From contig NZ_CANMDS010000005.1 of NCBI RefSeq assembly GCF_947496725.1, forward strand, positions 1 to 64,000: DNA of 64,000 nt. Direction: 5' to 3'. The notes below the pieces were generated by a model. That model made no database searches and had not been told where the DNA came from. It saw only the letters and a list, made by a program, of their open reading frames with translations. Origin of the DNA: an uncultured Dokdonia sp. (GTDB lineage Bacteria > Bacteroidota > Bacteroidia > Flavobacteriales > Flavobacteriaceae). The translations under genes and the position numbers were made by a program. Below are positions 8,488 through 62,844 of the stretch, piece by piece (the stretch's first letter is position 1; each line of letters begins with the position of its first letter).

Positions 8488-8501
8488 GCTTTCGCGAAAG
8501 C
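8488..8501. repeat. Dispersed palindrome GCTTTCGCGAAAGC, copy 1 (intergenic)
   Basis: Exact copy directly after the terminator, between convergent genes. Confidence 0.95.
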
Positions 8502-8522
8502 GCACTCATACCTTTATTCATA

Positions 8523-9044
8523 CTACCCCAAAGAGAAAATTACATCATTGTGCTCAATAACTTGTAGTACATACAAGACTAAGAATACCATTGTAGCCAC
8601 AGCTTTTATAAATGTAGAAGCTATAAAGCCAATAAAGGACCCTAGCGCTGCTTTAAGTGCAACCTGAGTACTCGTATTGTTAAAGTTGAGTTCACCTATA
8701 AAAGCGCCTACAAACGCCCCTATAAGAAAGCCCAAGGGTATGGGGCTAAGCAATCCCACAATAAGGCCTATGGTAGTACCTATTGCACCTGCTTTACTAC
8801 CCCCATATCGTTTTGTGCCCATTGCAGGGATGATATAATCAAGTATGGTGATTGCAACCGCCACGGCTAGCGTAATGCCTAAAAATGTCCAGTCTTGCGG
8901 TACAGCTTCTGTTAGGTGAAGGGTTAACAACCCTAGCCAACTTAAAGGCGGGCCAGGTATCACAGGTAAAAAACTGCCCACTATACCAGCTATTACAAGC
9001 AGTAGGCCTACAAAAACCAAAAAAAGATCTACATAGTTCATCAC
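8523..9044 (-). CDS. DUF456 family membrane protein
   Basis: This 173-residue protein has about five hydrophobic segments and the DUF456 pattern: an opening helix followed by GSFLPVIPGPPLSWLGLL, a central DYIIPAMGTKRYGGSKAGAIGT motif, then PLGFLIGAFVGAFIGEL. Function in the family is unknown. It is transcribed divergently from the BlaI repressor at 9175, and the intergenic region holds candidate repressor boxes, so the two could share regulation. It converges on the OmpA-family gene. Confidence 0.9.
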   Translation of the reverse strand: MMNYVDLFLVFVGLLLVIAGIVGSFLPVIPGPPLSWLGLLTLHLTEAVPQDWTFLGITLAVAVAITILDYIIPAMGTKRYGGSKAGAIGTTIGLIVGLLSPIPLGFLIGAFVGAFIGELNFNNTSTQVALKAALGSFIGFIASTFIKAVATMVFLVLYVLQVIEHNDVIFSLG

Positions 9045-9083
9045 TTATAAGACGTCAAAATGTTATAATGTTACGTTTTTTGA

Positions 9084-9115
9084 ACTAAAACATTAGTTTA
9101 AACTAAATATTTAGT
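9084..9115. promoter_or_regulatory. Two candidate BlaI-type operator boxes
   Basis: Two ACTAA-n4-TTAGT dyads lie at 9084-9097 (ACTAAAACATTAGT) and 9102-9115 (ACTAAATATTTAGT), 18 bp centre to centre, and share an overlapping TTAGTTTAAACTAA palindrome. They sit between the divergent DUF456 and BlaI genes and touch the -7 box at 9116. BlaI/MecI/CopY repressors bind paired short dyads; that this one does so here is inference. Confidence 0.5.
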
Positions 9116-9123
9116 TATATTTG
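9116..9123 (+). promoter_or_regulatory. Bacteroidota -7 box (TATATTTG) for the BlaI/M56 operon
   Basis: The sequence fits TAnnTTTG and lies 52 bp before the BlaI start. No clean TTG sits at the ideal -33 spacing, because the operator dyads occupy that space. Confidence 0.45.
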
Positions 9124-9174
9124 ATGTGTCGATGTTCAATATATTGACATACAGACTATTCAATTCCAGTTTTT

Positions 9175-9534: not shown

Positions 9535-9536
9535 TT

Positions 9537-11138
9537 ATGGGATCTTACATTATACAAGTCATTTGTTTTCAAGCATTATTTCTGGCAGTGTATTACCTGC
9601 TTTTAAGAAAAGAGACCTTTTTCTCATATAACAGAATATATTTGCTAGTCACTCCCGTAATTGCCCTCGCATTGCCGTTTATAAAAATTGCAATGTTACA
9701 AACGGTGGTACCTGTAGAGACCTTTGCCAGTGTTCTCCCAGAGGTTGTAATAGGTGATGCAGCAGTGAGTACGCCTACAGATGCGGCTCCTGTTACAGCA
9801 TCTTTTACCATACCGTGGTTACAAATTTATATGACAGGTGTGGTGATCAGTCTGGTTTTACTTGTCATAAAAATCAAGAAATTTGCAAGCTATTTTAGAT
9901 ATAAACAGAAAGGGTCTAGCATCATTGAGATTCCTTCATCTACAGAGGCTTTTACATTTTTTAACTACATATTTATTGGGGCAGATATAGATACGCTTTC
10001 GCGAAAGCAAATACTTACCCACGAACAGATACACGCAAAGCAAGGGCATACTTGGGATCTCATCTTTTTTGAGATTTTGAAAGTAGTACTGTGGTTTAAC
10101 CCTATTACCTATTTATATCAAAAAAATATAAGTATCGTACACGAGTACCTAGCAGATCAAAAAGCAACCGAAGGTATCTCAAAATACACCTATTATGAAG
10201 AGTTGCTTAACACTGCCTTTGGCACAAGTAAACTCTCATTTACAAATACATTTTTTAATCAATCATTAATCAAAAAACGAATCGTTATGTTACAAAAATC
10301 TAAGTCGAGACAAAGTGCGCTTATTAAATACATTGTAATAGTTCCGCTCATTTTAGCAATGCTTGTACAAGTCTCTTGGGCACAAAATTCAAATCAGTCA
10401 GGTGAGGTAGAAAGAGAGAATTTCACATTGATGGAAAATAACCTGCATAATGAGAAAATATATTACTCTATAATTGTTATAGATACTTTAAAACTGACTG
10501 ATAATGAGAATGCGTTTATAACAGCTGTAAAAAACGATAAATCTTTAGATTCAAAAGATTTTGATCCAGCAACAGGGAATGAGCCTATATTCGAAACCAT
10601 AAATAAATTTCTTACGTTTTCAAGTAAGGAGGATATTATTGAACTCAAAGAAAAATTTGATATAAAATCTTATACACTTCAGGAACTACGGACAAAATAT
10701 AACTTAAAAAATACTTATGCTTATCAGACCACTTATAGAGAAGAGGTTGAAGTTGTTGAAGAAGAAGAGGAGGTTGTTGGTATTCCTTACGCAGTGATAG
10801 AAAATGTCCCAACCTATCCAGGTTGTGAAGATTTAGTAGGTAATGATGCTCAAAAAGTGTGTATGTCTAATAATGTGTCTAAGTACGTAAACCGTAATTT
10901 CAATATGAATATTGCTAAAGATTTAGGACTTACAGGAGTTAATAGAATCTTTGTTTCTTTCAGAATAAATAAAACAGGGCAAGTAGATAATGTAAAAGTA
11001 AGAGCGCCTCACGAAGCTCTCGAAGAAGAAACCAGAAGAGTTATTTACAATCTACCTCAAATGAAGCCTGGCACGCAAGGAGGAGAAAATGTTGGCGTTC
11101 TCTACAGTCTCCCTATCACGTTTCAAATAGCGAAATAA
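9537..11138 (+). CDS. M56 (BlaR1-like) membrane metallopeptidase with TonB-type C-terminal domain, copy 1
   Basis: The 533-residue protein has N-terminal membrane helices, the zinc motif HEQIH at about 161-165 in LTHEQIHAKQGHTWD, and a downstream HEYLADQKA helix. A further membrane helix lies near residues 263-280. The periplasmic region ends in a TonB C-terminal-like domain (from about 420: NVPTYPGCEDL, then VNRIFVSFRINKTGQVDNVK and PITFQIAK). Family knowledge: M56 sensors relay envelope signals to BlaI repressors. A copy of the dispersed palindrome encodes LSRKQ just before the active site. The 780-bp 5' half is nearly duplicated in the next gene. Confidence 0.88.
   Translation: MGSYIIQVICFQALFLAVYYLLLRKETFFSYNRIYLLVTPVIALALPFIKIAMLQTVVPVETFASVLPEVVIGDAAVSTPTDAAPVTASFTIPWLQIYMTGVVISLVLLVIKIKKFASYFRYKQKGSSIIEIPSSTEAFTFFNYIFIGADIDTLSRKQILTHEQIHAKQGHTWDLIFFEILKVVLWFNPITYLYQKNISIVHEYLADQKATEGISKYTYYEELLNTAFGTSKLSFTNTFFNQSLIKKRIVMLQKSKSRQSALIKYIVIVPLILAMLVQVSWAQNSNQSGEVERENFTLMENNLHNEKIYYSIIVIDTLKLTDNENAFITAVKNDKSLDSKDFDPATGNEPIFETINKFLTFSSKEDIIELKEKFDIKSYTLQELRTKYNLKNTYAYQTTYREEVEVVEEEEEVVGIPYAVIENVPTYPGCEDLVGNDAQKVCMSNNVSKYVNRNFNMNIAKDLGLTGVNRIFVSFRINKTGQVDNVKVRAPHEALEEETRRVIYNLPQMKPGTQGGENVGVLYSLPITFQIAK
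9540..10320 (+). repeat. Duplicated M56 coding block, copy 1
   Basis: This stretch is highly similar to 11174-11957. Identity is almost complete over about 9905-10310 and slightly lower before it. The downstream periplasmic portions have diverged, but about 38 bp at the very 3' end (11093-11130) again match 12599-12636. Confidence 0.93.
9995..10008. repeat. Dispersed palindrome, copy 2 (in M56 copy 1)
   Basis: Exact GCTTTCGCGAAAGC, read as (T)LSRK(Q) next to the HEQIH active site. Confidence 0.95.
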
Positions 11139-11170: not shown

Positions 11171-12643
11171 ATGGCATTACAATACATTATACAAGTTATC
11201 TGTTTTCAAGCATTGTTTCTGGGAGTTTATTACCTGCTTTTAAGAAAAGAGACTTTTTTCTCATATAACAGAATATACTTGCTAGTCACTCCCGTAATTG
11301 CGCTAGCATTACCGTTTATAAAAATCGCAATGTTACAAACGGTGGTGCTTGTAGAGACATTTGCAAGTGTACTCCCAGAGGTTGTAATAGGTGATGCGGC
11401 AGTGATTACATCTACAGATGCGGCTCCCGTTACAGAGTCTTTTACCATACCGTGGTTACAAATTTATATGGTAGGTGTGGTGATTAGTCTAGTTGTACTC
11501 ATCATAAAGATTAAAAAATTTACGAGCTACTTTTCCTATAAACAGAAAGGGTCTAGCATCATAGAGATTCCTTCATCTACAGAGGCTTTTACATTTTTTA
11601 ATTACATATTTATTGGGGCAGATATAGATACGCTTTCGCGAAAGCAAATACTTACCCACGAACAGATACACGCAAAGCAAGGGCATACTTGGGATCTCAT
11701 CTTTTTTGAGATTTTGAAAGTAGTACTGTGGTTTAACCCTATTACCTATTTATATCAAAAAAATATAAGTATCGTACACGAGTACCTAGCAGATCAAAAA
11801 GCAACCGAAGGTATCTCAAAATACACCTATTATGAAGAGTTACTTAACACTGCCTTTGGCACAAGTAAACTCTCATTTACAAATACATTTTTTAATCAAT
11901 CATTAATCAAAAAACGAATCGTTATGTTACAAAAATCAAAATCACAAAAAAGCGCATTAGCAAAGTATTTACTTTTAATTCCACTTGTACTTGCAATGCT
12001 CGTGTATGTTTCTTGCTCCGAAGATAATGGAGTAGAAAATGAGCAAACTCTAGAACAGCAAATATTAGAACTTAAGTTAGCAATTGAGGATAGAGAAAGT
12101 CTTACTGCAGAAGAATTGAAACAGCTTCAAAGTCTAAGAGCAGCATCAGTCAATGGTATTAAAGGTTCTCAAATTATAGAAGTTGTAGAACAGCAAGAGG
12201 CATATAATCTTAATGAGGCTAATCAAGATGAAATAATAGAAGTGCTGGAAGTAGAACGTGTTTATGATGTAGATGAGAACGGAAATATCCCATTTGCTGT
12301 TATAGACGAGGTTCCAGTATTTCCAGGCTGTGAGTCCCTTACCTCAAATGAGCAATTAAGGAAATGTATGTCTCAAAAAGTAAACGCTTTAATTAACGCT
12401 AACTTTAATGTTGCATTAGGAAAAGAGCTAAATCTCAAGGGTACTAACAGAATTTTTGCCAGCTTTAAAATTGATAAAAACGGATTTATCACAAACTTAA
12501 GAACGCGCTCGCCACACCCAGATCTTGATGCTGAAGCACAGCGTGTGATTTCTATGTTACCAAAAATGAAACCTGGTAAACATAATGGTGAAGTAGTAGG
12601 CGTTCTCTACAGTCTCCCTATCACGTTTCAAATAGCAGAGTAA
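11171..12643 (+). CDS. M56 (BlaR1-like) membrane metallopeptidase with TonB-type C-terminal domain, copy 2
   Basis: The 490-residue paralogue of the preceding gene has the same membrane segments, HEQIH zinc motif and HEYLADQ helix. The periplasmic linker is quite different: Glu/Gln/Leu-rich, likely helical or coiled (about 285-365), beginning after an MLVYVSCSED segment that resembles a lipobox-like end. The C-terminal TonB-like domain keeps the paired cysteines of FPGCESL and LRKCMSQ. Placement 33 bp after copy 1 implies tandem duplication and co-transcription, perhaps giving two sensors with different ligands but one repressor. Confidence 0.88.
   Translation: MALQYIIQVICFQALFLGVYYLLLRKETFFSYNRIYLLVTPVIALALPFIKIAMLQTVVLVETFASVLPEVVIGDAAVITSTDAAPVTESFTIPWLQIYMVGVVISLVVLIIKIKKFTSYFSYKQKGSSIIEIPSSTEAFTFFNYIFIGADIDTLSRKQILTHEQIHAKQGHTWDLIFFEILKVVLWFNPITYLYQKNISIVHEYLADQKATEGISKYTYYEELLNTAFGTSKLSFTNTFFNQSLIKKRIVMLQKSKSQKSALAKYLLLIPLVLAMLVYVSCSEDNGVENEQTLEQQILELKLAIEDRESLTAEELKQLQSLRAASVNGIKGSQIIEVVEQQEAYNLNEANQDEIIEVLEVERVYDVDENGNIPFAVIDEVPVFPGCESLTSNEQLRKCMSQKVNALINANFNVALGKELNLKGTNRIFASFKIDKNGFITNLRTRSPHPDLDAEAQRVISMLPKMKPGKHNGEVVGVLYSLPITFQIAE
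11174..11957 (+). repeat. Duplicated M56 coding block, copy 2
   Basis: Partner of 9540-10320; see there for the pattern of identity. Confidence 0.93.
11632..11645. repeat. Dispersed palindrome, copy 3 (in M56 copy 2)
   Basis: Exact copy at the site equivalent to copy 2, so it predates the gene duplication or was copied by conversion. Confidence 0.95.
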
Positions 12644-14412: not shown

Positions 14413-15549
14413 CTATTTCTTGTAGTTGCGACCTTTCCATTGATACCCAGTAGTAAGCGATCTAAGGGCTATGTAGGTGTTTATAAAAGGGTAGCAAACC
14501 ATCACAACTGGATACCATTTTAAATAACTTTTTCGGTTATAAAAAAAAGCTTCGGTGGCAATGAGGATAACATCAACTACAAGTTTTATGACTAAGCTCA
14601 TTAATATGATGGATTGGGTTTCCGCTTTCGCGAAAGCGTAATAAAGAACTCCCACAACACTTAAAAGATTAACTGCCAAAACAAGAATCCCCATTAGTTT
14701 TGAGAACCAAAAGGTATAAGCACTAGACTTTGCCGCCCAGCGTGTGCGTTGTGCTATAAATATGTTCCACTGCTCTTGAGGCTGTGTGGTTACAATCGCA
14801 TCTGGAGAGCGTAAATAGCTTATCCTATTTTTAAACTTCTCTTGAAATTTCTCGAGTAAAAAATGATCATCTCCACTAGCGATATGATTATTATTTGCAA
14901 AGCCTTGAACGGCTGTAAAGGCTTCTTTATCATAAGCGAGATTTGCTCCGTTACATAAAAATGGTAAGCCCATATAAAAGCTTCCGGCAGTAGCGCCCAT
15001 AAGACTTAAAAAATCCAATTGCTCATAGGCAGTTAAAAATGAAGGCTGATCGGTGGTTGCGATAGCAACGGGCATAATCACCATAAGTGGTGATTGTTGC
15101 TGGATGATAGCGTCTAATGTGTTGAGCCAGTTTACGGACACGGTACAGTCGGCATCTGTGGTGACAATCCACTGGTGCTTACTGGTATGGATGGCGGTCT
15201 GGAGTGCATCTTTTTTTGGTGATGCAGAGGTGCGCACGTTGTCTATAACATCAATGTTTGTAAGCGCATATCGCGATATGCACTTATTTATGATCTCAAT
15301 AGAGTTGTCTGTAGAGACGTCATTTACTAAGATGATTTCCCAGCTGTTTTGTGGATAGTCAACTTCGGCTAGTGATTGCAGTAAGTTAGTAAGATGCGCT
15401 TCTTCATTTCTAAAGGGTACAATAACGGTAAATGTGGTAGTTGTAGCGTCACAAGATTGTGAGAACGTACCAGCGCGATTAATCTCAAGCGCAAACCCGA
15501 GGATGATAATTCCATAGAGTAAGAAAACAAAAAACAGCATCCAGATCAT
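14413..15549 (-). CDS. Family 2 glycosyltransferase, membrane-bound
   Basis: The 378-residue protein has an N-terminal membrane helix, a GT-A domain with VIVPFRNEEAHL, a DxD-type TTDADC metal site, an SGDDHF acceptor region and the QRTRW motif of processive GT2 enzymes, then three or four C-terminal membrane helices. Its start codon overlaps the stop of the flippase-like gene at 15549, so the two are translationally coupled. A lipid or polysaccharide glycosylation role is likely; the sugar is unknown. A dispersed palindrome encodes AFAKAE at 14624. Confidence 0.85.
   Translation of the reverse strand: MIWMLFFVFLLYGIIILGFALEINRAGTFSQSCDATTTTFTVIVPFRNEEAHLTNLLQSLAEVDYPQNSWEIILVNDVSTDNSIEIINKCISRYALTNIDVIDNVRTSASPKKDALQTAIHTSKHQWIVTTDADCTVSVNWLNTLDAIIQQQSPLMVIMPVAIATTDQPSFLTAYEQLDFLSLMGATAGSFYMGLPFLCNGANLAYDKEAFTAVQGFANNNHIASGDDHFLLEKFQEKFKNRISYLRSPDAIVTTQPQEQWNIFIAQRTRWAAKSSAYTFWFSKLMGILVLAVNLLSVVGVLYYAFAKAETQSIILMSLVIKLVVDVILIATEAFFYNRKSYLKWYPVVMVCYPFINTYIALRSLTTGYQWKGRNYKK
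14624..14637. repeat. Dispersed palindrome, copy 4 (in glycosyltransferase)
   Basis: Exact copy, read on the minus strand as AFAKA. Confidence 0.95.
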
Positions 15550-16511
15550 TATACTGTCTTTATGGTGCTAGTAGGCTTTTGCACGAGTAAAAAGTAGGCA
15601 CCAGGTAATAGCGGTACTACTACATTGAGCAGCCACATTAAAAGTACAGTACTTAATACAATCTCTTCGGGTACATTAAACCAGCCAAAAATGAGAACAG
15701 CCACACCACCGCGCACCACTACATCTAGTAACTGCATTACAGGTATGAGCGAGCTCACAAGGTAGGTAGCACAAATGCACGCCATTACAAAAGGATAACT
15801 TGTGGTAGCCCCTAGCAGGTAGAGAATGAGGTAGAACTGATGTGCAAAAATGATATATCGTATAAAGGAAAACAGGCGCACCTTCTTTTTGATGGGTGCA
15901 GCAATAGATTTCCAGTACTTCTTGATTTTATACCAAGGATTTCCCTTGAGTGTCCAGTGTACACTTCGTAGTATTTTAGGAAGTACCTGGTACAACACGA
16001 GTGCCATAAATATGCTCAAACTCCAAAAGAATATCGCTGTTCCACTAGTAAAAAAAGCAATAACCCCTAAGCCAATGCTCCCAAAAATAAGCGTCGCCAG
16101 CAGCTGATACATATTGCCTATAAAGTTTAAGAAGAGTATCTGCTTGCGTTGCTCTTTTGGATAATAGAGAGCCTTTGCACCATAGTCTCCAGCTTTGGCA
16201 GGAGTTACAAACCCTACGAGGTGAGCGGTGAGGGTTTGTATTGCGCTTTCGCGAAAGCGTACTAATCTATTTATACTCACTAGAGTTTGCCATTTCTTGA
16301 TTTCAAAAAACCAGTTGGCAGCGGTAAATAATAGTATGATTATAATATAGAGATATAACGATGATGTGCTAATTTCAGAAAGCTGAAATTGTAGCGACCG
16401 TAAATCACCGCGATCTAGTTTGTCATAAATAAAATAGCCAGCCAGTAGTACAATGAGAATCTTAAGAGTCGCCCAGAGTAATTGCGTAGCTTTGTGAGAT
16501 AATCTAGGCAT
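15549..16511 (-). CDS. Lysylphosphatidylglycerol synthase transmembrane-type (UPF0104) protein
   Basis: The 320-residue protein has about eight hydrophobic segments and UPF0104/LPG_synthase_TM features (FEIKKWQTLV, TAHLVGFVTPAKAGDYGAKAL, the late VVRGGVAVLIFGW). Members without the synthase domain are thought to move lipids or glycolipids across the membrane. The gene overlaps the glycosyltransferase by one base and lies first in the pair, suggesting a joint role in glycolipid assembly. A dispersed palindrome encodes RFRES at 16245. Confidence 0.85.
   Translation of the reverse strand: MPRLSHKATQLLWATLKILIVLLAGYFIYDKLDRGDLRSLQFQLSEISTSSLYLYIIIILLFTAANWFFEIKKWQTLVSINRLVRFRESAIQTLTAHLVGFVTPAKAGDYGAKALYYPKEQRKQILFLNFIGNMYQLLATLIFGSIGLGVIAFFTSGTAIFFWSLSIFMALVLYQVLPKILRSVHWTLKGNPWYKIKKYWKSIAAPIKKKVRLFSFIRYIIFAHQFYLILYLLGATTSYPFVMACICATYLVSSLIPVMQLLDVVVRGGVAVLIFGWFNVPEEIVLSTVLLMWLLNVVVPLLPGAYFLLVQKPTSTIKTV
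16245..16258. repeat. Dispersed palindrome, copy 5 (in UPF0104 gene)
   Basis: Exact copy, read on the minus strand as (V)RFRES(A). Confidence 0.95.
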
Positions 16512-18340: not shown

Positions 18341-19099
18341 ATGCTTGCAACTATAACTCATAATAAAGAAACTTTTAAGGTCAATCTTTCAAAACCTATT
18401 GATCTCTCGATTCCCCTTACTTCTAAGAAGAATCCGCTAGCTTGGTATATTGACCCGCCTAAGTTTGAGACAGTCACAGATGGCGAGTGGGTAGGAAGTG
18501 TGCGCAAGGGAGGCGATGTGAATTTTACTACCATCACCTTTAACCCACATTCTCACGGCACGCATACAGAGACCGCTGGTCATATCACAGAAAAGGTGCA
18601 TAGCATTAATAAAAATCTCAAAACATTTTTCTTTATCGCAGAGGTGGTGACAGTCATACCAGAGCCGCTTGATAATGAAGATGATGATTTTATACTAAGT
18701 GATAAGCAGTTTAAAAACCTACTTAAAGATAAATCACCAGAAGCTTTGGTGATACGCACATTGCCTAACGCACGCGAAAAGAAAACAATGAACTGGTCTA
18801 ACACAAACTGGCCATTTGTAGATGAGAGGGCGATGGTACGCTTTCGCGAAAGCGGTATAAAACACCTTCTCATAGATTTACCTAGTGTAGATAAAGAAAA
18901 AGATGGTGGAGAGCTCAAGGGGCATCACGCGTTTTGGGATGTAAATGGTGAGATACGACTAGATGCGACTATTACAGAGATGATCTATGTACCGCATAAA
19001 GTTCCAGACGGGACGTATCTTCTTAATCTCCAGATTGCCTCTTTTGAAAATGATGCCACACCTAGCAAGCCTATCTTATATAAAATCGAAACAGAATAA
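18341..19099 (+). CDS. Cyclase family (kynurenine formamidase-like) hydrolase
   Basis: The 252-residue protein has the metal-binding signature of this family, HxGTHxExxxH (HSHGTHTETAGHI, about residues 68-80), and a later KGHHAFWDV segment. Family enzymes hydrolyse N-formylkynurenine or cyclic amides; the substrate here cannot be told. The next gene starts on the last base of its stop codon, so they are coupled. A dispersed palindrome encodes RFRES at 18840. Confidence 0.85.
   Translation: MLATITHNKETFKVNLSKPIDLSIPLTSKKNPLAWYIDPPKFETVTDGEWVGSVRKGGDVNFTTITFNPHSHGTHTETAGHITEKVHSINKNLKTFFFIAEVVTVIPEPLDNEDDDFILSDKQFKNLLKDKSPEALVIRTLPNAREKKTMNWSNTNWPFVDERAMVRFRESGIKHLLIDLPSVDKEKDGGELKGHHAFWDVNGEIRLDATITEMIYVPHKVPDGTYLLNLQIASFENDATPSKPILYKIETE
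18840..18853. repeat. Dispersed palindrome, copy 6 (in cyclase gene)
   Basis: Exact copy, read as (V)RFRES(G). Confidence 0.95.
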
Positions 19100-19629: not shown

Positions 19630-22600
19630 ATGCCTAACTATCATCTCTCATCCTCCTATCTTAAAAAAACCATTATAATTAAGTATGCATACGTCCTGCT
19701 GGCTTTGCTTACCATAACTATTTCTTGTAAAGAGAAGAGCACACCTACAGACAATCTTTTTAAGTTTAAGGATTACATTTCTTACACCACAGAGGATCGA
19801 CAGTCTGTTATGAGCCCTATACGTGTGGAGCTTGCACAGCCACTCACGCAGTTTGAGGTAGACCAGGTGCTACCTAGTGATATTATTAAAGTGCGTCCTA
19901 AAGTTTCTGGAGTGCTTAGTCTTCATAACAGTAGACTATTAGAGTTTATACCAGAAGAGCCACTCAAACCAGACACGGCATACGAGGTCACTCTTATGCT
20001 TGATAAACTATATGATGATCTTGACGCAGGGAAGGAGCAATTTACTTTTGGCTTCAAGACCATTACTCCAGATTTTAAAGTAGCGATGGGAGCTTTGCAA
20101 TCATATAGTAAGGATTATAATTATCTAGAAGGACAAATAGAAGCGAGTGATGATATCGCTTTCGCGAAAGCGCAACAACTCATAAACGCTTCTCAAAATG
20201 GTAATGCACTAGCCGTAAAATGGTTTAATAAAGATGGGGTGTCTAGATTTCATTCATTTAGAATAGATAGCATCTCCCGCTCTAATGCAGATTCACAAAT
20301 TATGCTTACCTGGGATGGTAAAGCTATAGGAGCCAGAGACACAAATGGTAAGAACACCATACAAATACCGGGAAAAGATAATTTTAAAATCATAGGCATA
20401 CATCAAGAGCGCGGCGCAAACGCCTCTGTGATTATAAATTTTTCTGACCCATTAAAGGATAACCAAAACTTTGCTGGACTCGTGACAATTGCGCGTGCAG
20501 GAAACCTTCGCTTTGAAGTAAATGGAAATGTACTACAGGTATATCCAGAAAATAAGATAGTAGGTAATGCACTGGTTGAGGTTTTTCAAGGAATAAAAAG
20601 TACTGATGATTATAAGTTGAAACAACCCTTTAAAGAGACCGTAAGTTTTGAGCAAATAAAACCTGCCATACGGGCTATCACAAATGGAGTTATTCTTCCA
20701 AAATCTACGAGTACTCCTTATTATTTTGAGGCAGTAAATCTTACACACGTAGACGTGAGAGTTATTAAGATTTATGAAGACAATGTACTCGAGTTTTTAC
20801 AAGAGGGATCGCTTAATAATACGAGTAGTTATAACCTTAAAAAAGTGGGTAGGCGCATAGCAAAAAAGACGATTGAGATTGCACAACGAGGCGATCTTAA
20901 CACCGGCCAGTGGCAAGCTCACGGGGTAGATCTCTCAGCTATTTTTAAAGCAGATCCTGGAGCATTGTATAGAGTAGAGATAAGCTATAAACCTTCTTAT
21001 GCTATTTATGAGTGTGATGATGCTGTTGCTGGTAGTGTAGAGGAAGATAGTTATGAGGACTATTATGAAGATGCATATACCGAGGCAGAGAGTCCAGATG
21101 AAGATGCTAGAGAGGAGCAGTACTGGGATAACCGTATTTATAGATGGCGTAAGCAAGTATACAACTGGAGACAAGAAGATAACCCTTGCCACCCCGCATA
21201 TTACCAAGAGTCAAAATTTGTAAATAGTAATTTACTAGGGAGTAATCTAGGGGTGATTGTAAAAAAAGGAAAAGACAATTCTTACTTGTTTGCAACATCA
21301 GATATTGTGACTACTACGCCAGAGGCAAACACAAAAATCACATTATATAATTACCAAAAGCAACCCATTGCAACAATCACTACAGATGCGACTGGAATAG
21401 CTCAAGTAACACCAGATGGCTACCCAGTATATGCTGTTGCAGTAAAAGATGGAAACTATGCTTACTTAAAACTGCAAGATGGGCATAGTCTCTCTATGAG
21501 TAAGTTTGATATTGCGGGTAATCAACTTGAGAAAGGGCTTAAAGGTTTTACCTACTTAGACAGAGGTGTGCACCGCCCTGGTGATACCATCCATCTTACT
21601 TTTACACTTAATGATAAGGCAAACCCACTGCCAAAAGATCACCCAGTAAAGCTGGAAGTGACAGATGCACGAGGTAAACTTATGTATAGAAGGGTAGCGT
21701 CTATATCAAAAAGAGGATCTCAAAATGGAAACCAAGCGCTTAATAACTTTTATTATTTCCCAGTTCCTACAGAGCAGGACGCTCCTACGGGTAACTATAA
21801 TGCTACCATCTCTGTGGGAGGTGCCACATTTAACCAAACGCTCAAAGTAGAAACCATAAAACCTAATCGCCTCAAAGTAGACCTTACTTTTAAAGATGAG
21901 ATACTACAAGCAAGCGGAAATCTTATGGGTGATGCCACTGTAAAATGGTTACACGGAGCGCCTGCCAGAAATTTGAAAATTAAAACAGACGTTACTATAC
22001 GCAAGTCAAGTAGCGGGTTTAGCCAGTTTCCTGGATATAATTTTTATGACCCAATTAGGGAGTTTGATGAGGTTAGTATGGATTTGCTAGATGGCACTCT
22101 GGATAATGAAGGCAACATAAAGATTAATAAAAAAATAGATTTGAGTAAGCGAGCACCGGGTATGCTCAAGGCAACGTTTGTTACAAAAGCCTATGAGGGA
22201 GGAGGTGACTTCTCTCTGGATGTGGTAAGTAAGGATGTCGCACCGTTTGATCACTTTGTAGGTCTGCGAGCTCCAAAAAGTCGTGCTTACGGCAGTTATT
22301 ACACAGATCAAAATATAGAGTTTGACCTAGCTACTACAAATGCTCAAGGCGCACCAGCTGCGGGACGTAAGCTTCAAGTAAAAGTATTTAAAATGTCTTG
22401 GCGCTGGTGGTGGAACAGGAGTCGAGATAATTACTCTAGTTATGAAACAAGTACCGTACATACACCTGTACAAGACTTTACCGTCACGTCTGGTTCTAAC
22501 GGAAAAACAAGTTTTAACCTCAATATTCCGGAGAAGGAAAGTGGACGCTATCTCATACGTGTTATAGATCCAGAAAGCGGTCACGCTACAGGCCGTATCG

Positions 22601-46007: not shown

Positions 46008-46025
46008 TCAAAAAAAACGCACAAT

Positions 46026-46964
46026 ATGAAAGCAATAGTATTAGAAAAAGCAGGAGGACCAGAAAACCTTCACTTAGCAGAAGTAGCAAAACCAGGCATA
46101 AAAAATAACGAAGTATTAGTAGCGGTAAAGGCTATTTCATTAAACCCGGCAGATGTAAAACCAAAGTATCAAGATAAGATGCTGAATATGATGTACGGTG
46201 AAAAACGACCTGTTATTTTAGGCTGGGATATAGCAGGAACCGTAACAGAAGTTGGTACTGATGTTACCAATTTTAAAATAGGCGACAATGTCTTTGGTAT
46301 GGTGAATTTTCCTGGTGTAGGTAACGCTTACGCGGAATTTGTTGCTGCACCAGAAGCACATTTAGCTATAATGCCAGACAACGTCTCTTTTGAAGAAGCT
46401 GCGGCTACCACCTTAGCTGCTTTAACTGCATTGCAAATCTTAAAAGGAAGGATTGATAAAGGTGATAAAATACTAATACAAGCAGGTTCTGGTGGTGTTG
46501 GGCATTTTGCGATTCAAATAGCAAAAGCAATGGGAGCTTTTGTGAATACTACTGCCTCGGCAAAAAACGGTGCATTTGTTACCTCTATTGGAGCAGATAA
46601 CGCAATAGATTATCATACTGAAAAGTTTGAAGAAATTTTATCTGATATCGACTTCGTGTTAGATACGCAAGGTGGTAAAGTATTAGAAAATTCCATAAAA
46701 GTTTTAAAAAGCGGTGGTACAGCTTATACAACAGTAGGTATGGACTTAGATGACTTAAAAGCATCAGCCAAAAAGGAGAACAAAACCGTTTCAGACATTT
46801 TAGTACACTCTAGTGCTGAAGATATGAACACCTTAAAAGTAATGTTAGAAAACGGTAGCATTAAACCAAACATTTACAAGACGTTTGCTTTTGAAGATAT
46901 GGCTGCTGCTCATACCGAAGTAGAAAAAGGAAGAACAGTGGGTAAAGTAATCGTGACACTTTAG
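46026..46964 (+). CDS. NADP-dependent quinone oxidoreductase-like MDR protein
   Basis: The 312-residue protein is a zinc-free medium-chain reductase: MKAIVLEKAGGPENLHLAEVAKP, SLNPADVKPKY, LGWDIAGTVTEVG, and the nucleotide loop ILIQAGSGGVGHFAIQIAKAMGA. Relatives reduce quinones or alpha,beta-unsaturated carbonyls with NADPH. It lies 18 bp after the SnoaL lipoprotein gene and 19 bp before the aldehyde dehydrogenase. Confidence 0.9.
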   Translation: MKAIVLEKAGGPENLHLAEVAKPGIKNNEVLVAVKAISLNPADVKPKYQDKMLNMMYGEKRPVILGWDIAGTVTEVGTDVTNFKIGDNVFGMVNFPGVGNAYAEFVAAPEAHLAIMPDNVSFEEAAATTLAALTALQILKGRIDKGDKILIQAGSGGVGHFAIQIAKAMGAFVNTTASAKNGAFVTSIGADNAIDYHTEKFEEILSDIDFVLDTQGGKVLENSIKVLKSGGTAYTTVGMDLDDLKASAKKENKTVSDILVHSSAEDMNTLKVMLENGSIKPNIYKTFAFEDMAAAHTEVEKGRTVGKVIVTL

Positions 46965-46983
46965 TATTAACTATTAAAACACA

Positions 46984-48480
46984 ATGAAAATGAAAACACA
47001 AGATAAATTACCAAATTATACGAGAAAAATATTTGTTGGTGGCGAATGGAAAGACGGAAAAGGACCAGCCATCAAGGATATTAACCCTTGGAACCAAGAG
47101 GAATTATTCTCTTTAAATGGAGCTACTACAGATGATGTAAATGAAGCTTTTGAACAAGCAGCAGTTGCGCAGAAAAAATGGGCAGCGGTACTACCTCCTG
47201 AAAAGAGTAGAATGATGCTAAAACTAGCCGAAGTAGTTAGAAACCGAAAGCAAGAGTTTGCAGAATGGGCAAGAAAAGAAGTAGGAGCAACCTTAGCAAA
47301 AGGGTATTTTGAAGCAGAATTAGTAGCTAGCGTTTTTGAAAGTGCTGTGCATTTACCATTACAAGTAGAAGGTAAAATATTACCACAAGATATTGATGGC
47401 AAAGAATCTATGGCTGTTAGAAAACCATTAGGTGTTATTGGTTTAATTTCTCCTTGGAATTTTCCGGGTCAATTAACTGCGCGTACTTTAGGTCCAGCAT
47501 TGGCAGTAGGTAACGCTGTGGTATTAAAACCGGCATCAACGTCTATAGTAACAGGTGGTTTAATATTCGCATCTTTTTTAGAAGAGGCAGGTTTCCCGAA
47601 AGGGTTATTAAGCGTTTTACCAGGTGGAGGAAGTACTATTGGTACTGCGATTACAAAGCATCCTATTTCAAAATTAATTTCGTTTACAGGCTCAACACCA
47701 GTGGGTCGTCAAGTTGGTAAAAATGCTCTGGAAGCAGATATCATTAAAAATATTGAGTTAGAATTAGGTGGTAACAGTCCGTTTGTAGTGCTAGAAGATG
47801 CAGATATAGATCAAGCGGTTGAAGCTGCTGCTTGGGGTAAATTTATGAACCAAGGTCAAATCTGTATGGCTATCAACAGAATTATCGTTGAAGATAAAGT
47901 CTATGACGAATTTACAGAGAAGTTTATAGCAAAAGTTAAGACCTTAAAACGATTGGATATGAATGATCCGGATACGTTTGTAGGTCCTATTATTGATCAA
48001 AATCAGTTTGATACTGTTAAAGGCTTAATAGACGATGCAAAAGAACAAGGTTACAAAATGGCATTAGGTGGAGAAGCTGAAGGTTTACATATGCCGCCAC
48101 ACATTTTTGTAGATGTAGACGAAAATTGCCCATTATTTCAAAATGAAATTTTTGGACCAGCAGTGTCTATTGCTAGAGCAAAAGATACAGAAGATGCGCT
48201 ACGATTAGCAAATGCTACAGACTACGGTTTATCTAGTTCTGTATTTACACAAGACGAAGCAAAAGGAATGGCATTTGCACAAGGTATTGAAGCTGGTATG
48301 ACACATATTAATGACCAACCAGTTAATGATAGTGCCTATGCACCATTCGGTGGAGTTAAAAACTCAGGGCTAGGTCGTTTTAATGGACAATGGGGTGTAA
48401 AATCGTTTACCGTAGCACATTGGATTACCATTCAGAAAACACCAAGAAAATATCCTTTTAAAGCAGCTGATTTTCAGTAG
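46984..48480 (+). CDS. Aldehyde dehydrogenase family protein
   Basis: The 498-residue protein has ALDH hallmarks: GLISPWNFPGQLTARTLGPALAVGNAVVLKPAS, ISFTGSTPVGRQVG, catalytic Glu in ELGGNSPFVVLEDAD and catalytic Cys in FMNQGQICMAINR, and the late EIFGPAVSIARA. It resembles the benzaldehyde/vanillin dehydrogenase subgroup rather than betaine or succinate-semialdehyde enzymes; that subgrouping is only by eye. It is the last intact gene of the cassette operon. Confidence 0.9.
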   Translation: MKMKTQDKLPNYTRKIFVGGEWKDGKGPAIKDINPWNQEELFSLNGATTDDVNEAFEQAAVAQKKWAAVLPPEKSRMMLKLAEVVRNRKQEFAEWARKEVGATLAKGYFEAELVASVFESAVHLPLQVEGKILPQDIDGKESMAVRKPLGVIGLISPWNFPGQLTARTLGPALAVGNAVVLKPASTSIVTGGLIFASFLEEAGFPKGLLSVLPGGGSTIGTAITKHPISKLISFTGSTPVGRQVGKNALEADIIKNIELELGGNSPFVVLEDADIDQAVEAAAWGKFMNQGQICMAINRIIVEDKVYDEFTEKFIAKVKTLKRLDMNDPDTFVGPIIDQNQFDTVKGLIDDAKEQGYKMALGGEAEGLHMPPHIFVDVDENCPLFQNEIFGPAVSIARAKDTEDALRLANATDYGLSSSVFTQDEAKGMAFAQGIEAGMTHINDQPVNDSAYAPFGGVKNSGLGRFNGQWGVKSFTVAHWITIQKTPRKYPFKAADFQ

Positions 48481-48520
48481 AATTTTATTGTTTAAAATTG
48501 AATGATAAACAAATATAATT

Positions 48521-48734
48521 ATGTCACTCTCACGGGTGAAAAATGTACTTAATGAGTTGGAAGCAATGTCTTTCCAACTATCTAGTGGAGAATTAGTATC
48601 TATTAATTTTCTCTTGATTGCGGTAGATAAGGTGTCAAAACATTTTATAAATTAAGATGGTGTCTTGAATAGAGTAGAAGTGATAAACTTCCATATATGG
48701 AATGTAGATGACTATAATCTAAGATCGCAAGTAG
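48521..48734 (+). pseudogene. Remnant of a DUF6428-like protein gene
   Basis: ATG 48521 opens a 44-codon frame (MSLSRVKNVLNELEAMSFQL..., ending KVSKHFIN) stopped by TAA at 48653. The same frame continues with DGVLNRVEVINFHIWNVDDY until the right repeat begins. This matches my recollection of the DUF6428 family N-terminus, in which a KHFIDCGG-type motif is followed by a VVNFQLWNADDY-type motif; the stop replaces the Cys position. The 3' half is missing. It seems to have been truncated when the cassette joined the right repeat. No search was possible. Confidence 0.55.
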
Positions 48735-48937
48735 AAAAGCAGACTTTAATTAGTCGGCTTTTTTTATGCTTTAGGAAGTCTTTGTGCGTAAGACTTTATA
48801 ATGCTGATGTTAGCGCCTTAGAATTCTTCTAACCTTCATTAAAAGGCAAAAAAAATAAAGAGCATCCCCCGATACTCTTTATTATACACTCATTTTTGTA
48901 GTAAGCAAACTAATTCAAATATTGTGAGTGTTGTAAA
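48733..48937. repeat. Right flanking direct repeat of the 9.5-kb cassette
   Basis: Partner of 39009-39252. The tRNA-type terminator hairpin at 48735-48765 is slightly decayed here (an A-G mismatch replaces the wobble pair), whereas the alginate-operon terminator is intact. Confidence 0.92.
48854..48883 (-). terminator. Terminator of the alginate catabolic genes
   Basis: AATAAAGAG/CTCTTTATT stem; on the minus strand it is followed by a T-run (48855-48847). It lies about 60 bp past the kdgA stop. Confidence 0.85.
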
Positions 48938-48943: not shown

Positions 48944-49618
48944 TTATACTTTTTTAATTGAAGCTACAATGTCTAGCGCTTTTTTGGTTTTTTGTTCAAT
49001 AGCTTTATAATCCCAAACACCTGTTGTCGCATCTGGAGCGATAAGTTTTGATCCCATACCTACGCAAGTAACACCTGCGTTAAACCATTCTTCCAGACTC
49101 TCTTGAGTAGGAGATACTCCACCTGTAGGCATTATAGAGGTCCAAGGACACGGGCCCTTTATAGCTTTTACAAACTGAGCTCCATATATCCCTCCAGGAA
49201 AAAGTTTTACTACCTCACAACCTAACTCTTCTGCACGAGCAATTTCTGTAAGAGACCCACAGCCTGGTGACCAGAGTACTTTTCTTCTGTTACACACTAA
49301 GGCGATATCTTCTCGTAACACTGGTGTTACAATAAAGTTTGCGCCTAGTTGCATATAAAGCGATGCTGCAGCACCATCTGTAATACTACCTACACCTAGT
49401 ATGAGCTCTGGTAATTCCGCTTTCGCGAAAGCGCACAACGCATCAAACACTTTGTGGGCATTATCACCTCTACTTGTAAACTCTATAACGCGAGCACCTG
49501 CACTATGGCAGGCTCTGAGAATGTTTTTACCCACCTCAATAGACTCGTTATAAAACAAAGGCACGATGCCTGTGTCTTTCATTGCTTGAGCTACTTCTAT
49601 TCTTGTAAATATTGCCAT
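48944..49618 (-). CDS. kdgA: 2-keto-3-deoxy-6-phosphogluconate (KDPG) aldolase
   Basis: The 224-residue protein has class I KDPG aldolase signatures: active-site Glu 46 in RVIEFTSRG, GVGSITD at about 75-81, and Schiff-base Lys 138 in EVVKLFPGG, then SIMPTGGVSP. It splits KDPG to pyruvate and glyceraldehyde-3-phosphate, the last step of alginate uronate breakdown. It lies 2 bp after kdgK. A dispersed palindrome encodes AFAKAE (residues 63-68). Confidence 0.94.
   Translation of the reverse strand: MAIFTRIEVAQAMKDTGIVPLFYNESIEVGKNILRACHSAGARVIEFTSRGDNAHKVFDALCAFAKAELPELILGVGSITDGAAASLYMQLGANFIVTPVLREDIALVCNRRKVLWSPGCGSLTEIARAEELGCEVVKLFPGGIYGAQFVKAIKGPCPWTSIMPTGGVSPTQESLEEWFNAGVTCVGMGSKLIAPDATTGVWDYKAIEQKTKKALDIVASIKKV
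49419..49432. repeat. Dispersed palindrome, copy 13 (in kdgA)
   Basis: Exact copy, read on the minus strand as AFAKA. Confidence 0.95.
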
Positions 49619-52808: not shown

Positions 52809-52822
52809 GCTTTCTCGAAAGC
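52809..52822. repeat. Degenerate copy of the dispersed palindrome
   Basis: GCTTTCTCGAAAGC differs from the consensus by one base and is flanked by TTAC and GTA. It lies just past the GntR-regulator stop. Confidence 0.8.
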
Positions 52823-60103: not shown

Positions 60104-60106
60104 ATT

Positions 60107-60140
60107 GGTTTTCCAGACTGGTTTACCAGTTTGGAAAACC
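60107..60140. promoter_or_regulatory. Candidate GntR/FadR-family operator before susC
   Basis: A 15-bp inverted repeat with one mismatch and spacer TTTA. Its core TGGTTTACCA (60119-60128) fits the TGGT-n-ACCA operators of FadR-subfamily repressors such as UxuR and ExuR. On the minus strand a near-consensus -7 box (CATATTTG, 60147-60140) abuts it, with a TTG about 20 bp further up. It would control susC-susD-PKD-PL7. Confidence 0.6.
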
Positions 60141-60193
60141 AAATATGATGATAATAAATTGTTAATGCAAAAAAAAGAGTGTTAAAATATTAA

Positions 60194-60541
60194 CTATTTC
60201 ATAAAATCTTCGCGTATTGGTGAGAAAACGTCAATAAGCACCCCTGCTTCAGTACAAATAGCTCCGTGTAAATCGTGTGGCGGAATGTAAAAAGAATCTC
60301 CAGCTTTAAGGGTCTGAGTCTTTCCGTCTATAGTAACATCAAAAGATCCACTCTCTACATAAGTTACTTGAGAATGGTAGTGCTCGTGCATAGGTCCTAT
60401 TCCTCCTTTTTCAAAATATACCTTTACGAGCATAATCTTATCGTCATAGCCCATTATTTTGCGTTTTACGCCTTCACCTACTACTTCCCACTCAATGTCT
60501 GCGCCTTGTATAAATTCTTTACTTGATCCAAATGATTCCAT
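60194..60541 (-). CDS. kdgF: KdgF-like cupin (unsaturated uronate linearisation)
   Basis: The 115-residue single cupin has metal-binding motif 1 HEHYHSQVTYVESG and motif 2 AGDSFYIPPHDLHG, with the MGYDDKIMLVKVYFEKGGIGP opening seen in KdgF proteins. KdgF speeds conversion of cyclic 4,5-unsaturated monouronates, released by PL17, to linear DEH. It lies 5 bp after the PL17 gene, which supports the assignment. Confidence 0.9.
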   Translation of the reverse strand: MESFGSSKEFIQGADIEWEVVGEGVKRKIMGYDDKIMLVKVYFEKGGIGPMHEHYHSQVTYVESGSFDVTIDGKTQTLKAGDSFYIPPHDLHGAICTEAGVLIDVFSPIREDFMK

Positions 60542-60546
60542 AATGT

Positions 60547-62844
60547 TTAATTTTTAAGTTGTTTAAAATAATATGTACCCTTCCAGGTGTATGTATTGTT
60601 AGATAATTCTAGTTTGTGTTGCGCTTTCGCGAAAGCGGAATCTACCACAATCACTACATAACGGTCTTTGTTTTGTAAGGTAAGCTCGAGGGCTGTATAC
60701 CCTTGAGGTGACGCTAGTGATTTAATATGTTGAACGGCTGCATAGGCATTTTCTGCTTTTTCGGTCACTGGATTATACGTGCCGTGAGACTCTATTACTT
60801 GCACAAACAGACCATTCTTCATGTTGTTGCGACGATGTATAAGCATAGGGTCGCGACGTAAATTAAACTCTGGATCACTTGCCCCTACACGACCAAAAAT
60901 GAACTGGTCTTTACCTTCTGTAAGAACAGTTGCCGAGTAAAACTTCTTGTTATCTAGCCAGGTAAACTGTGTGTTTTCTGTACTAGGGATGCCTGTAGCC
61001 TCTTTCCAGATATGCTGGTAACCTGCTTGTGTGCCTAGAGGGCTGAGTTGAGGTGGAGTTTTTAAATCAAGGTTTGTCGCTACTACCTGCCCTTTATAAT
61101 AGAGTGGGAGATCATATTTGTGATTACTATCACTGGTCACATTAAGAATATCTATAAGCAATGGTTTTTTATGATGGTCTAGCGTTACCATCATCATAGT
61201 ACGAGTAAACTCTGTGCCGGGGTAGGCATTTGCCTCTAACGCACTTACAACTTGAATGTTTGGGTCGCTTGTTTCAAAAGTGATTACCTCTGGGTGATGT
61301 TTTGAACTTTCTTTAAATATACCCTTGTAATGAGAGGTTTCATCTTGTACGAGGGTGTTGTGAGCTATTGTTTGTTTTGCCCAACTCGTATTTTCTTTAA
61401 GATATCCGCCACCATTTTTTTGCTCTACATTTACAAAACGCGCCAGGCCATAGTCTTGTAATACCTCTTCACCATCTTCATATAACGAGTACGATAATTT
61501 ATCAAAGTGACCGTGACTTAACCCGTGAGCGGCATTCTTCATAACAAGTGCCATTGTGCCGCCCTCATAATTTGCACGCAATATAGCTACACCACCTTCA
61601 TCACCTTTTGCCCCGTCACGTAAGAGCATAGACTCTTTTATAAAAGGTTGTGCTTTGCCTTGATGTATGCCTTGAGCAACGGCAAGGCCTGTGGCATCTA
61701 GCTGTACATTATCTTGTTGTAGTGCAACAGATAGTAGTCTTGGATCTTGATTACCGTAATAGTATGCAATATCTACTGCAGAAACTAGGGAGGCCGTTTG
61801 GTATGACATTCCCTTCTGTCCATCATTAAGAGGGAAGAACTCACCATCTGCATCTGTAAGGTTTAATAAGGCATCTACCGCTTTAATGAGCACACCGCCG
61901 TTGTATTCAAATATCTTGAGCTCTGGTTTTTTAGTTTCTAACGCTTGCGCGAAAGCTAAGAAAGGATACATCGCATAACGCTGATAGTAAGGTCCCTCTG
62001 TATAATAACCATCTGGCGAAAATGGCTCATCTAGATTTGCCAAAAAACCGGTTTTCTGTCCTTCTCTCTTTATCGTTCCGCCATCATTGTCAAGAGCTTC
62101 ACTGTCTATTCCGTCGTCCTTTATTCCGTATAAAGCTCTATCTACAAGCTCGTCATCATTTATCACTAAGCCTATCATCCCTACAGCTACAGTTCCCCAA
62201 GTGCTATGGTTATGTACTCTATTAAAAAACTGTGGCGTTTCTACAGATAGAAAATCTGCAAAGGGGCGAAATAACTCATTATCTAAGGTCTGTCGTTCTT
62301 CTTCTGTGACCCATCCTCTTATACCGTCATACGCCTGACTCATATACACGAGCCAGTTTGCATCATTAAGACATTGCCAAAAGATTTTTCCGCGGGCATA
62401 TGAGCGTTCTTGCGGGTGACGAGGTAGTGACTTGTACATCTTTGCATATGCTAGTAATACATCTCTGGTAAACGCTGCATATTTCGTGTCGCCTGTAATT
62501 TGAAACAGGGCACCTGCTTTTTGTAAAGTGGCATAATTTTTTTTGTGTTGCGTATGGGTGTAGCCACCAGCCATATCTTTTGGTATGGGCACTTGTATAC
62601 CTTCTGCCATTGCCGCGTCTACTTCTTGCTTTGCTCGCTCGAGCGATTTGTCAAATAATGGTACACTCCCTAATGCACTTTTGATATTATCTACACTTTT
62701 TGAGGTAAGCATTAGCTTAGGGTGATCTGCAATATTTTCTGAGTCACTTACTATAGTAGTTTGATCTTGATTTTTGCAAGAAAGAGCAACCATTACAATT
62801 GCGATGAGCTGTATAGCTTTTTTTAAGTGTTTAAAGTGTTTCAT
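60547..62844 (-). CDS. Family 17 polysaccharide lyase (oligoalginate lyase), lipoprotein
   Basis: The 765-residue protein has a lipoprotein signal (IAIVMVALSCKNQ), an alginate_lyase toroid (about 40-400; HPKLMLTSKSVDNIK, FFNRVHNHSTWGTVAVGMIGL with the Asn/His catalytic neighbourhood, GYYTEGPYYQRYAMYPFLAFAQ) and a heparinase II/III-type beta-sheet domain (about 420-760; HGLSHGHFDKLSYSLYEDGEEVLQDYG). PL17 enzymes release unsaturated monouronate from oligoalginate. A dispersed palindrome encodes AFAKA near the C-terminus. Confidence 0.94.
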   Translation of the reverse strand: MKHFKHLKKAIQLIAIVMVALSCKNQDQTTIVSDSENIADHPKLMLTSKSVDNIKSALGSVPLFDKSLERAKQEVDAAMAEGIQVPIPKDMAGGYTHTQHKKNYATLQKAGALFQITGDTKYAAFTRDVLLAYAKMYKSLPRHPQERSYARGKIFWQCLNDANWLVYMSQAYDGIRGWVTEEERQTLDNELFRPFADFLSVETPQFFNRVHNHSTWGTVAVGMIGLVINDDELVDRALYGIKDDGIDSEALDNDGGTIKREGQKTGFLANLDEPFSPDGYYTEGPYYQRYAMYPFLAFAQALETKKPELKIFEYNGGVLIKAVDALLNLTDADGEFFPLNDGQKGMSYQTASLVSAVDIAYYYGNQDPRLLSVALQQDNVQLDATGLAVAQGIHQGKAQPFIKESMLLRDGAKGDEGGVAILRANYEGGTMALVMKNAAHGLSHGHFDKLSYSLYEDGEEVLQDYGLARFVNVEQKNGGGYLKENTSWAKQTIAHNTLVQDETSHYKGIFKESSKHHPEVITFETSDPNIQVVSALEANAYPGTEFTRTMMMVTLDHHKKPLLIDILNVTSDSNHKYDLPLYYKGQVVATNLDLKTPPQLSPLGTQAGYQHIWKEATGIPSTENTQFTWLDNKKFYSATVLTEGKDQFIFGRVGASDPEFNLRRDPMLIHRRNNMKNGLFVQVIESHGTYNPVTEKAENAYAAVQHIKSLASPQGYTALELTLQNKDRYVVIVVDSAFAKAQHKLELSNNTYTWKGTYYFKQLKN
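60623..60636. repeat. Dispersed palindrome, copy 14 (in PL17 gene)
   Basis: Exact copy, read on the minus strand as (S)AFAKA(Q). A one-mismatch copy (GCTTGCGCGAAAGC) lies in the same gene at 61943-61956. Confidence 0.95.

Follow-up and report, generated by a model that had tools for sequence, protein, structure and literature searches.

A 14-bp palindrome dispersed through Dokdonia genomes as a conserved DNA element and candidate self-DNA signal

The DNA investigated in this study, a stretch of 64,000 nucleotides from an uncultured Dokdonia species of the Flavobacteriaceae (positions 1 to 64,000 of contig NZ_CANMDS010000005.1), hereafter termed the window, raises the question of why a single 14-bp palindrome, GCTTTCGCGAAAGC, should recur throughout its length. 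A preliminary description had located 14 exact copies, at coordinates that are all correct, and had considered a DNA uptake sequence, a site for a methylase or for a nucleoid or segregation protein, and a highly iterated palindrome as potential explanations. If up to two mismatches are permitted, the window contains 19 matches compared to 0.14 expected, a number reached by none of 100 shuffled sequences, which rules out a chance origin of the copies. Among the near-copies reported previously, those at 52809 and 61943 (one mismatch each) and at 23454 and 30255 (two each) hold, whereas the one at 51795 exceeds two mismatches and another at 13106, with two, had been overlooked. In the entire genome (3.29 Mb in 121 contigs), the exact word is found 905 times, equivalent to about one copy per 3.6 kb, and its reversed control not once, so that the term ‘highly iterated palindrome’ is correct as a description. 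A count near the chance value and a confinement to one mobile element, both of which had been held up against a general signal, are contradicted by this number and by the three to nine copies found in every 20-kb piece out of 20 sampled along the single-contig Dokdonia genome G001 (about 17% of this chromosome was read, in stretches; individual site positions in genome-wide counts refer to the matches listed). The abundance, placement and conservation of GCTTTCGCGAAAGC show that it is a DNA element of the whole genome, independent of orientation, which selection or drive maintains at the level of the DNA itself. A word kept exact at about 900 fairly even places, together with changed codons and residues, must be read by something important or be strongly driven.

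Uptake sequences are recognised by a short word that is vastly over-represented throughout a genus, and GCTTTCGCGAAAGC is such a word in Dokdonia, where all 18 genomes searched contain between 369 and 905 exact copies. In a sample of 299 Flavobacteriaceae genomes, 61 show a match, five of them being rich (408–905 copies) and 56 containing 1–19 copies, with the other 238 containing none. The rich genomes belong to three genera, namely Dokdonia (G000, G003), g11 (G027 with 578 and G258 with 664 copies) and g191 (G207 with 408). Matches in a class-wide sample of 296 genomes are restricted to 16, comprising the window's own genome and 15 with one to four copies. In a tree of RpoB sequences (FastTree, 30 genomes) g191 adjoins Dokdonia (local support 83) and g11 is placed elsewhere, and the motif-rich state thus requires at least two changes. 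Copy density varies among the genera and species of this group (369–905 per genome). When 20 motif-free genera were searched (40 kb each) for an analogous dispersed word of at least nine bases, none reached the strength of the motif-rich controls, with a best score of 33 (the 9-mer GCTTCGGAA in G118) compared to 65–147 in four controls; a score of 55 in G057 stems from 23-copy words in five bins, which were taken for a local repeat. Weakly over-represented 9-mers, CTTCGGAAA and GCTTCGGAA, were observed in the motif-free genomes G095 and G118 (L323–L324, L329–L330). In the literature, the 14-mer and the 12-mer were found nowhere, occurrences of the 10-mer are unrelated as judged by titles and the first lines of abstracts, and mentions of Dokdonia with palindromes look incidental from their listing; a search for over-represented palindromic uptake sequences in Flavobacteria found none. 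The evidence points to a DNA-level signal that had not been recognised before.

Architecture of the site

The copies of the word are nearly all-or-none. Within 464 kb of sequence, 141 exact sites are found next to 9, 20 and 18 sites with one, two and three mismatches, compared to 0, 0, 1.3 and 13.8 in Markov sequence. In these properties, GCTTTCGCGAAAGC resembles the DNA uptake sequences (DUS) of Neisseria and the uptake signal sequences (USS) of Haemophilus, which also form hundreds of dispersed near-exact copies, are genus-restricted and are tolerated within genes, and whose excess, according to excerpts of PMC1939737, falls with mismatch load in the same way, a correspondence that supports a role as self-DNA signal. 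Many of the two-mismatch copies are of one kind, where GC is lost from one end while TTTCGCGAAAGC is intact (a larger set lists 24 such entries, partly orthologues of each other); their arms are C-poor to a lesser degree than the arms around full sites. As a side observation, such sites constitute an asymmetric second class, as for example at L158 6492 and L164 6398 in Dokdonia, with some of them appearing conserved between species as judged by their flanks.

The two-base deviations concentrated at the ends of the word, with 62 of 82 deviating positions in two-mismatch copies being the outer two, recall the highly iterated palindrome HIP1 of cyanobacteria (GCGATCGC), which likewise belongs to one bacterial group. 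A comparable origin, as by-product of a methyltransferase and mismatch repair (Elhai's ratchet), would be in line with a GC-ended, taxon-restricted palindrome of the kind described in excerpts of PMC4390886 and with the enrichment of longer sub-words outside the 14-mer (TTCGCGAA 13 compared to 5.7, GCTTTCGCG 17 compared to 1.4 expected). However, outside the 14-mer the short cores show no enrichment (CGCG 404 compared to 631, TCGCGA 43 compared to 60), one-base deviations are spread (of 22, 9 fall on the two outermost positions and 13 on positions 5–7), and the ratchet leaves the even spacing and the composition of the flanks described below unexplained. We know of no precedent for a methylase with a 14-bp target. 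GCTTTCGCGAAAGC also differs from HIP1 in its length (14 instead of 8 bp), its occurrence in Flavobacteriaceae and its even spacing at about one copy per 3.6 kb within a field of biased composition; the literature on HIP1 concerns cyanobacteria, as judged from its listing, and the excerpts of PMC4390886 contain no mention of Flavobacter, Bacteroidetes or Dokdonia. Although the iterated palindrome, the longer sub-words and the terminal two-base deviations speak for this part of the preliminary description, we thus consider the ratchet very doubtful.

The core is embedded in flanks whose composition is biased in Dokdonia for about 26 bp on each side, resulting in an element of about 66 bp, as exemplified by the site at 25857–25922, where the 5′ arm is C-poor on each strand. 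In the 5′ arm of either strand, C drops to about 5–7% at positions −5 to −12 compared to a background of about 19%, with G and T being raised; A+T is higher than background from −3 to −7 and returns to near background further out. The same field is found in g11. The extension of the palindrome by TTAC/GTAA noted previously is real, but it is merely the inner portion of this longer symmetric field, and pairing between the arms beyond this consensus shows no excess over composition. Coding sites read in gene sense show the bias to about the same extent on either side, as do intergenic sites, and it is thus a property of the DNA rather than of transcripts. The 22-mer folds as DNA into a 9-bp hairpin and two copies in the window fold clearly better than shuffled sequences (z of −3.4 and −4.3), so that a single-strand hairpin might form, whereas an extended hairpin is partly rejected since outer-arm pairing stays within the expectation from composition. 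The strand asymmetry of the arms suggests a step, for example in recombination or transformation, at which the element works in single-stranded form. On these grounds, a signal for uptake or recombination is ranked first, a site for a chromosome-organising protein second and a two-way Chi third.

In the last of these readings, the palindrome would switch an AddAB-type helicase-nuclease from degradation to recombination when approached from either side, within arms that favour RecA. Its 5′ arms are G/T-rich on both strands, G/T-rich surroundings are also found at Chi sites of RecBCD and AddAB, and excerpts of PMC3763553 describe a preference of RecA for TGG repeats. An AddB-like nuclease protein was detected in every one of 20 genomes (16 of which contain another match at a distance of about 5 kb) and RecC in none of 58, which excludes a Chi of the RecBCD type; sites on phages and islands would also be explained. 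The density of the word is near that of Chi in E. coli. Known Chi sequences are recognised on a single strand and lack palindromic symmetry, whereas GCTTTCGCGAAAGC is palindromic, far longer and requires both halves. This requirement is evident from GCGAAAGC, which is present on each strand of the word and which we take to be an unusually stable DNA mini-hairpin. If half-words sufficed, GCGAAAGC should abound by itself, yet 282 copies are inside the 14-mer and 24 outside (which exceeds the 7.1 expected), and it thus does not behave as a strand-specific, non-palindromic word that is sufficient alone. Motif-free genera contain AddAB-like genes just as regularly. A two-way Chi appears improbable.

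Placement, spacing and conservation

Of 127 copies, 65 are located within the 8.9% of bases outside called open reading frames (ORFs), corresponding to a rate ratio of 10.7 (ORFs were called mechanically as the longest frames of at least 90 residues). A larger set comprises 156 sites, of which 84 fall entirely into coding sequence, distributed along the genes, and 72 are intergenic, with 15 in divergent, 14 in convergent and 43 in co-directional gaps; in this as in the spacing, composition and gene-sense sets, sites of the window and of G001 overlap by orthology and are not all independent. Part of this distribution would suit a transcription terminator or RNA hairpin element, as would the described hairpin: the highest density is found in convergent gaps (4.1 kb with 14 sites), and among 41 sites in co-directional gaps 46% are found in the first quarter after the upstream stop codon. 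However, divergent gaps, which hold about 24% of the gap bases and 15 of the 72 intergenic sites, are not avoided, more than half of the sites are in coding regions, and the arms are the same whatever the sense of the gene. An intrinsic terminator was therefore rejected and a function of this type is considered extremely unlikely.

Spacing, for which the preliminary description had proposed a check, is even. For the first 99 gaps listed in the window's genome, the coefficient of variation (CV) is 0.46, with none of 20,000 random sets being as even, and there is no gap below 500 bp compared to 14 expected. The CV of the first 99 gaps listed in G001 is 0.74, a value reached by 0.08% of random sets. 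With a gene-aware null model for G001, which retains the intergenic preference, the ratio of variance to mean of the counts is 0.29 compared to 1.27, and none of 2000 sets matches this dispersion, the numbers of short gaps or the CV of the gaps. In the window and in stretches of 60 kb surrounding it in five relatives, the CV ranges from 0.60 to 0.90, and evenness thus varies. The two longest gaps among the listed sites of G001 coincide with ORFs of 4431 and 5060 residues (L287 3426–16721 and L288 125–15307), and a gap of 12 kb in the window includes a block without motif (39252–48766) that is absent from the fetched stretch of G001 and is probably accessory DNA.

Such spacing, with no sampled piece being empty, might also be expected from a site for a lineage-specific chromosome-organising or nucleoid protein, which would be needed every few kilobases on any resident replicon, be it the chromosome, an island or a prophage. 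A palindrome would fit a dimeric protein, the positions are conserved, and sites are found on islands and phage contigs. However, beyond about 8 bp the arms differ mainly by strand asymmetry (from C to G and T) and not by A+T, which would be unusual for a protein binding double strands, an objection that is qualified by the raised A+T at −3 to −7. We know of no chromosome-organising protein with about 900 sites. The sites of Noc, parS and matS are palindromes of 13–16 bp that are bound by dimers. Compared to these, copies of GCTTTCGCGAAAGC are far more numerous and uniformly spread, and neither a regional bias nor a dedicated ParB-family protein accompanies them: a single ParB_N match was detected in 11 of 12 motif-rich genomes tested, which rejects a Noc-like second ParB, with the exception, G002, containing a 616-residue type that is also found in motif-free genomes. 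A segregation site of the Noc/ParB type, as had been suggested, is thus disfavoured, and a chromosome-organising protein in general is a serious, if unlikely, candidate.

The conservation of the sites was followed in ten other Dokdonia genomes for those window sites that align. Exact copies were found at 13 of 13 places in G001, at 10 of 11 each in G005, G007 and G004, at 3 of 3 each in G003 and G014 and at 2 of 2 each in G010, G017, G002 and G016, whereas control 14-mers in the same alignments are identical in 59% (G001), 58% (G005), 14% (G007), 20% (G004), 2.0% (G003), 1.6% (G010), 1.4% (G014) and 1.2% of cases (G017, G002 and G016); the six genomes with 2.0% or less are the most distant relatives. 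The listed differences at orthologous places in these ten comparisons are substitutions without gaps, which together with the long-term exactness and the even spacing speaks against a selfish or mobile short repeat or an artefact of horizontal gene transfer. Moreover, the copies have in common merely the core and the composition of its flanks. In favour of such an origin, the clustered copies in motif-free genera mostly occupy shared metal-resistance islands (10 of 12 fetched places), but with 905 copies in the genome and three to nine in each sampled piece of G001, confinement to one mobile element is rejected and we regard a mobile repeat as hardly credible.

The word also goes along with a changed protein sequence. 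In PBP1C, all 11 Dokdonia sequences contain T-L-S-R-K-R encoded by identical motif codons, whereas different residues occupy this place in the five homologues compared from elsewhere (two from g11 genomes, three from motif-free genera), and the word thus goes with Dokdonia-specific changed residues. Among named contigs, the matches to PBP1C were all Dokdonia MAGs (3 of 3 loci), one being 99% identical to the protein of the window. In g11, PBP1C carries a site at a different place, which is the same in the peptides of G258 and G027 (NSAFAKAEQ and DSAFAKAEQ). The word is also read as AFAKA in the N-terminal signal region of two predicted exported proteins (L177 16764–19544 and L174 3750–5087), where the peptide precedes a putative cleavage site. 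Between G207 and Dokdonia, two of three alignable coding sites are common, one of them in a short ORF, and between g11 and Dokdonia one of three gene places is common, with the two unshared comparisons being weak alignments.

Proposed recognition of self-DNA and candidate partners

By analogy with DUS and USS, we tentatively favour the view that GCTTTCGCGAAAGC, as a palindromic signal, marks self-DNA for uptake and recombination. A sequence-specific host protein would bind the core as dimer on double-stranded DNA, and this binding would favour the uptake, or the retention and recombination, of DNA bearing sites. Homologous exchange among site-bearing cells would spread and repair the sites, and since one site per fragment length would suffice, the spacing would become even. 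The C-poor, G/T-rich 5′ arms might keep the incoming single strand unstructured outside of the core and favour the loading of RecA, and mobile cargo and phages of such hosts would acquire sites as well. The palindrome is thus proposed to result from selection for a bound dimer, and the even spacing from saturation within a few kilobases. This view is supported by the count of 905 copies compared to none of the control, the restriction to three of the genera sampled in the family, the even spacing and the intergenic excess, by the exact conservation, the residues and codons that fit the motif, C-poor arms that are independent of gene sense, the uptake of DNA without pili in Riemerella and the preference of R. 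columbina for its own DNA, and by the 14 sites in the 53.1 kb of the window that align to the fetched stretch of G001 compared to none in the 10.9 kb that do not. The earlier suggestion of an uptake sequence is thus retained as first choice, although not as proven.

Several observations weigh against this assignment. To our knowledge, known uptake sequences are not palindromes, and GCTTTCGCGAAAGC, known here from sequence alone, differs from DUS and USS in being a perfect palindrome with symmetric C-poor arms. Among the matches listed, a strong match to a type IV pilus ATPase (PF00437) is absent in four of the five motif-rich genomes of the family sample, with G000, G003, G207 and G027 showing weak ones (E-values of 5e-5 to 5e-4) and G258 alone a strong one. 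The weak matches do not exclude uptake because the related Riemerella are transformed without pili, as stated in excerpts of PMC8459023 and PMC7965970. In R. columbina, transformation was competed by its own DNA at amounts where DNA of R. anatipestifer or E. coli was ineffective (excerpts of PMC7965970 and PMC8459023). Words no longer than 10 bp were counted for Riemerella and Flavobacterium johnsoniae in PMC7965970, the excerpts of which list A/T-rich ones. A DUF5689 protein, a candidate for uptake in Riemerella, does not discriminate since it is present in 34 of 34 genomes including motif-free ones, and its tree does not group the motif-rich genera. No binding protein has been identified, as neither the pilus ATPase, RecC, AddB, ParB nor DUF5689 separates motif-rich from motif-free genera. 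In g191 the C-poor arm extends over only about 7 bp (24 half-sites), and long arms are thus not general; the contrast with accessory DNA is small (no site compared to about 2.9 expected); and uptake bias alone does not predict the sites found in phage head-region genes and metal-resistance islands.

These latter sites were found in two settings. At 12 fetched places with clustered copies in motif-free genera (29 sites), 10 are mutually related, the exceptions being L208 and L212, and the annotated islands L204 and L211 contain metal efflux and resistance genes. The related islands (L202–L207, L209–L211, L213) are common to several Flavobacteriaceae genera whose members contain few other copies, and several of the hosts contain a ParB_N protein of the 616-residue type, which at G029:C18:76088 precedes the fetched stretch by about 4 kb. 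Pieces of viral contigs contain at least 132 matches, and among the matches listed 27 from 14 contigs, some of which look alike, have Dokdonia-like arms (score above 0); many of the single matches are by our estimate due to chance. On the IMG/VR pieces L119, L143, L072 and L146, motif and Dokdonia-like arms coincide with portal, head, tape measure, baseplate hub and primase genes. A 30-nucleotide query against named phages and plasmids gave merely short matches at chance level (7 and 4 records).

A more far-reaching form of the self-DNA reading, which we offer as a speculative possibility, would see in the word a genome watermark, a bidirectional palindromic self-DNA and recombination signal with RecA-friendly arms, with which competent Flavobacteriaceae devoid of pili, or the AddAB nuclease of these bacteria, would distinguish own from foreign DNA and which mobile elements and phages would carry like a passport. 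The word offers a direct handle on how pilus-free Flavobacteriaceae might recognise their own DNA, or on a chromosome-wide binding protein, and a marker for tracing DNA exchange, with the metal-resistance islands of other genera carrying it.

Individual copies in the window

None of the copies in the window is assigned to a strand. Five of the exact ones are exact in four of four aligned relatives, namely those at 9995–10008 in an M56/TonB_C gene (9537–11138), at 11632–11645 in an ORF (11171–12643), at 14624–14637 in a glycosyltransferase gene on the minus strand (14413–15549), at 18840–18853 in a cyclase-family gene (18341–19099), where the word is read FRES, and at 37247–37260 between genes (37136/37402). 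The sites at 9995 and 11632, located in neighbouring genes, have identical flanks of at least 15 bases per side and are apparently paralogous. Wider comparisons were obtained for the sites at 20158–20171 in an ORF of 1871 residues (19630–25245, read AFAKA) and at 25883–25896 in the PBP1C gene (25251–27620, read TLSRK), both exact in all ten other Dokdonia compared, and for the site at 29112–29125 in a minus-strand ORF (28986–29354, read FRES), which is exact in six of six relatives aligned as DNA and in a protein search is present in 7 of 11 Dokdonia rows, with the other four being weak matches.

Three places deviate in one relative each, with the other three of G001, G004, G005 and G007 being exact: 16245–16258 in a minus-strand ORF (15549–16511; one mismatch in G005), 32955–32968 between genes (32763/32978; one mismatch in G004) and 35206–35219 in an M56 gene on the minus strand (34387–36768; two mismatches in G007). 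The copies at 49419–49432 in a KDPG aldolase gene (48944–49618) and at 60623–60636 in an alginate lyase gene (60547–62844), both on the minus strand, are exact in G001 as sole aligned relative, and the copy at 8488–8501 in a non-coding convergent gap is exact in G001 as well, although it is not among the sites aligned in the ten-genome comparison. The one-mismatch copy at 52809–52822 is non-coding with an exact orthologue in G001, whereas the one at 61943–61956 has the identical one-mismatch form there (L155 16907). Three other over-represented palindromes in the window, TTATCGATAA, TCCTGCAGGA and ACAATTGT, were considered as related signals and rejected since they arise from a 327-bp tandem repeat. 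The near-identical 327-bp repeats form an ORF of 1772 residues at 127–5445, which contains no copy of the motif and adjoins a PorP/SprF and an OmpA-family gene.

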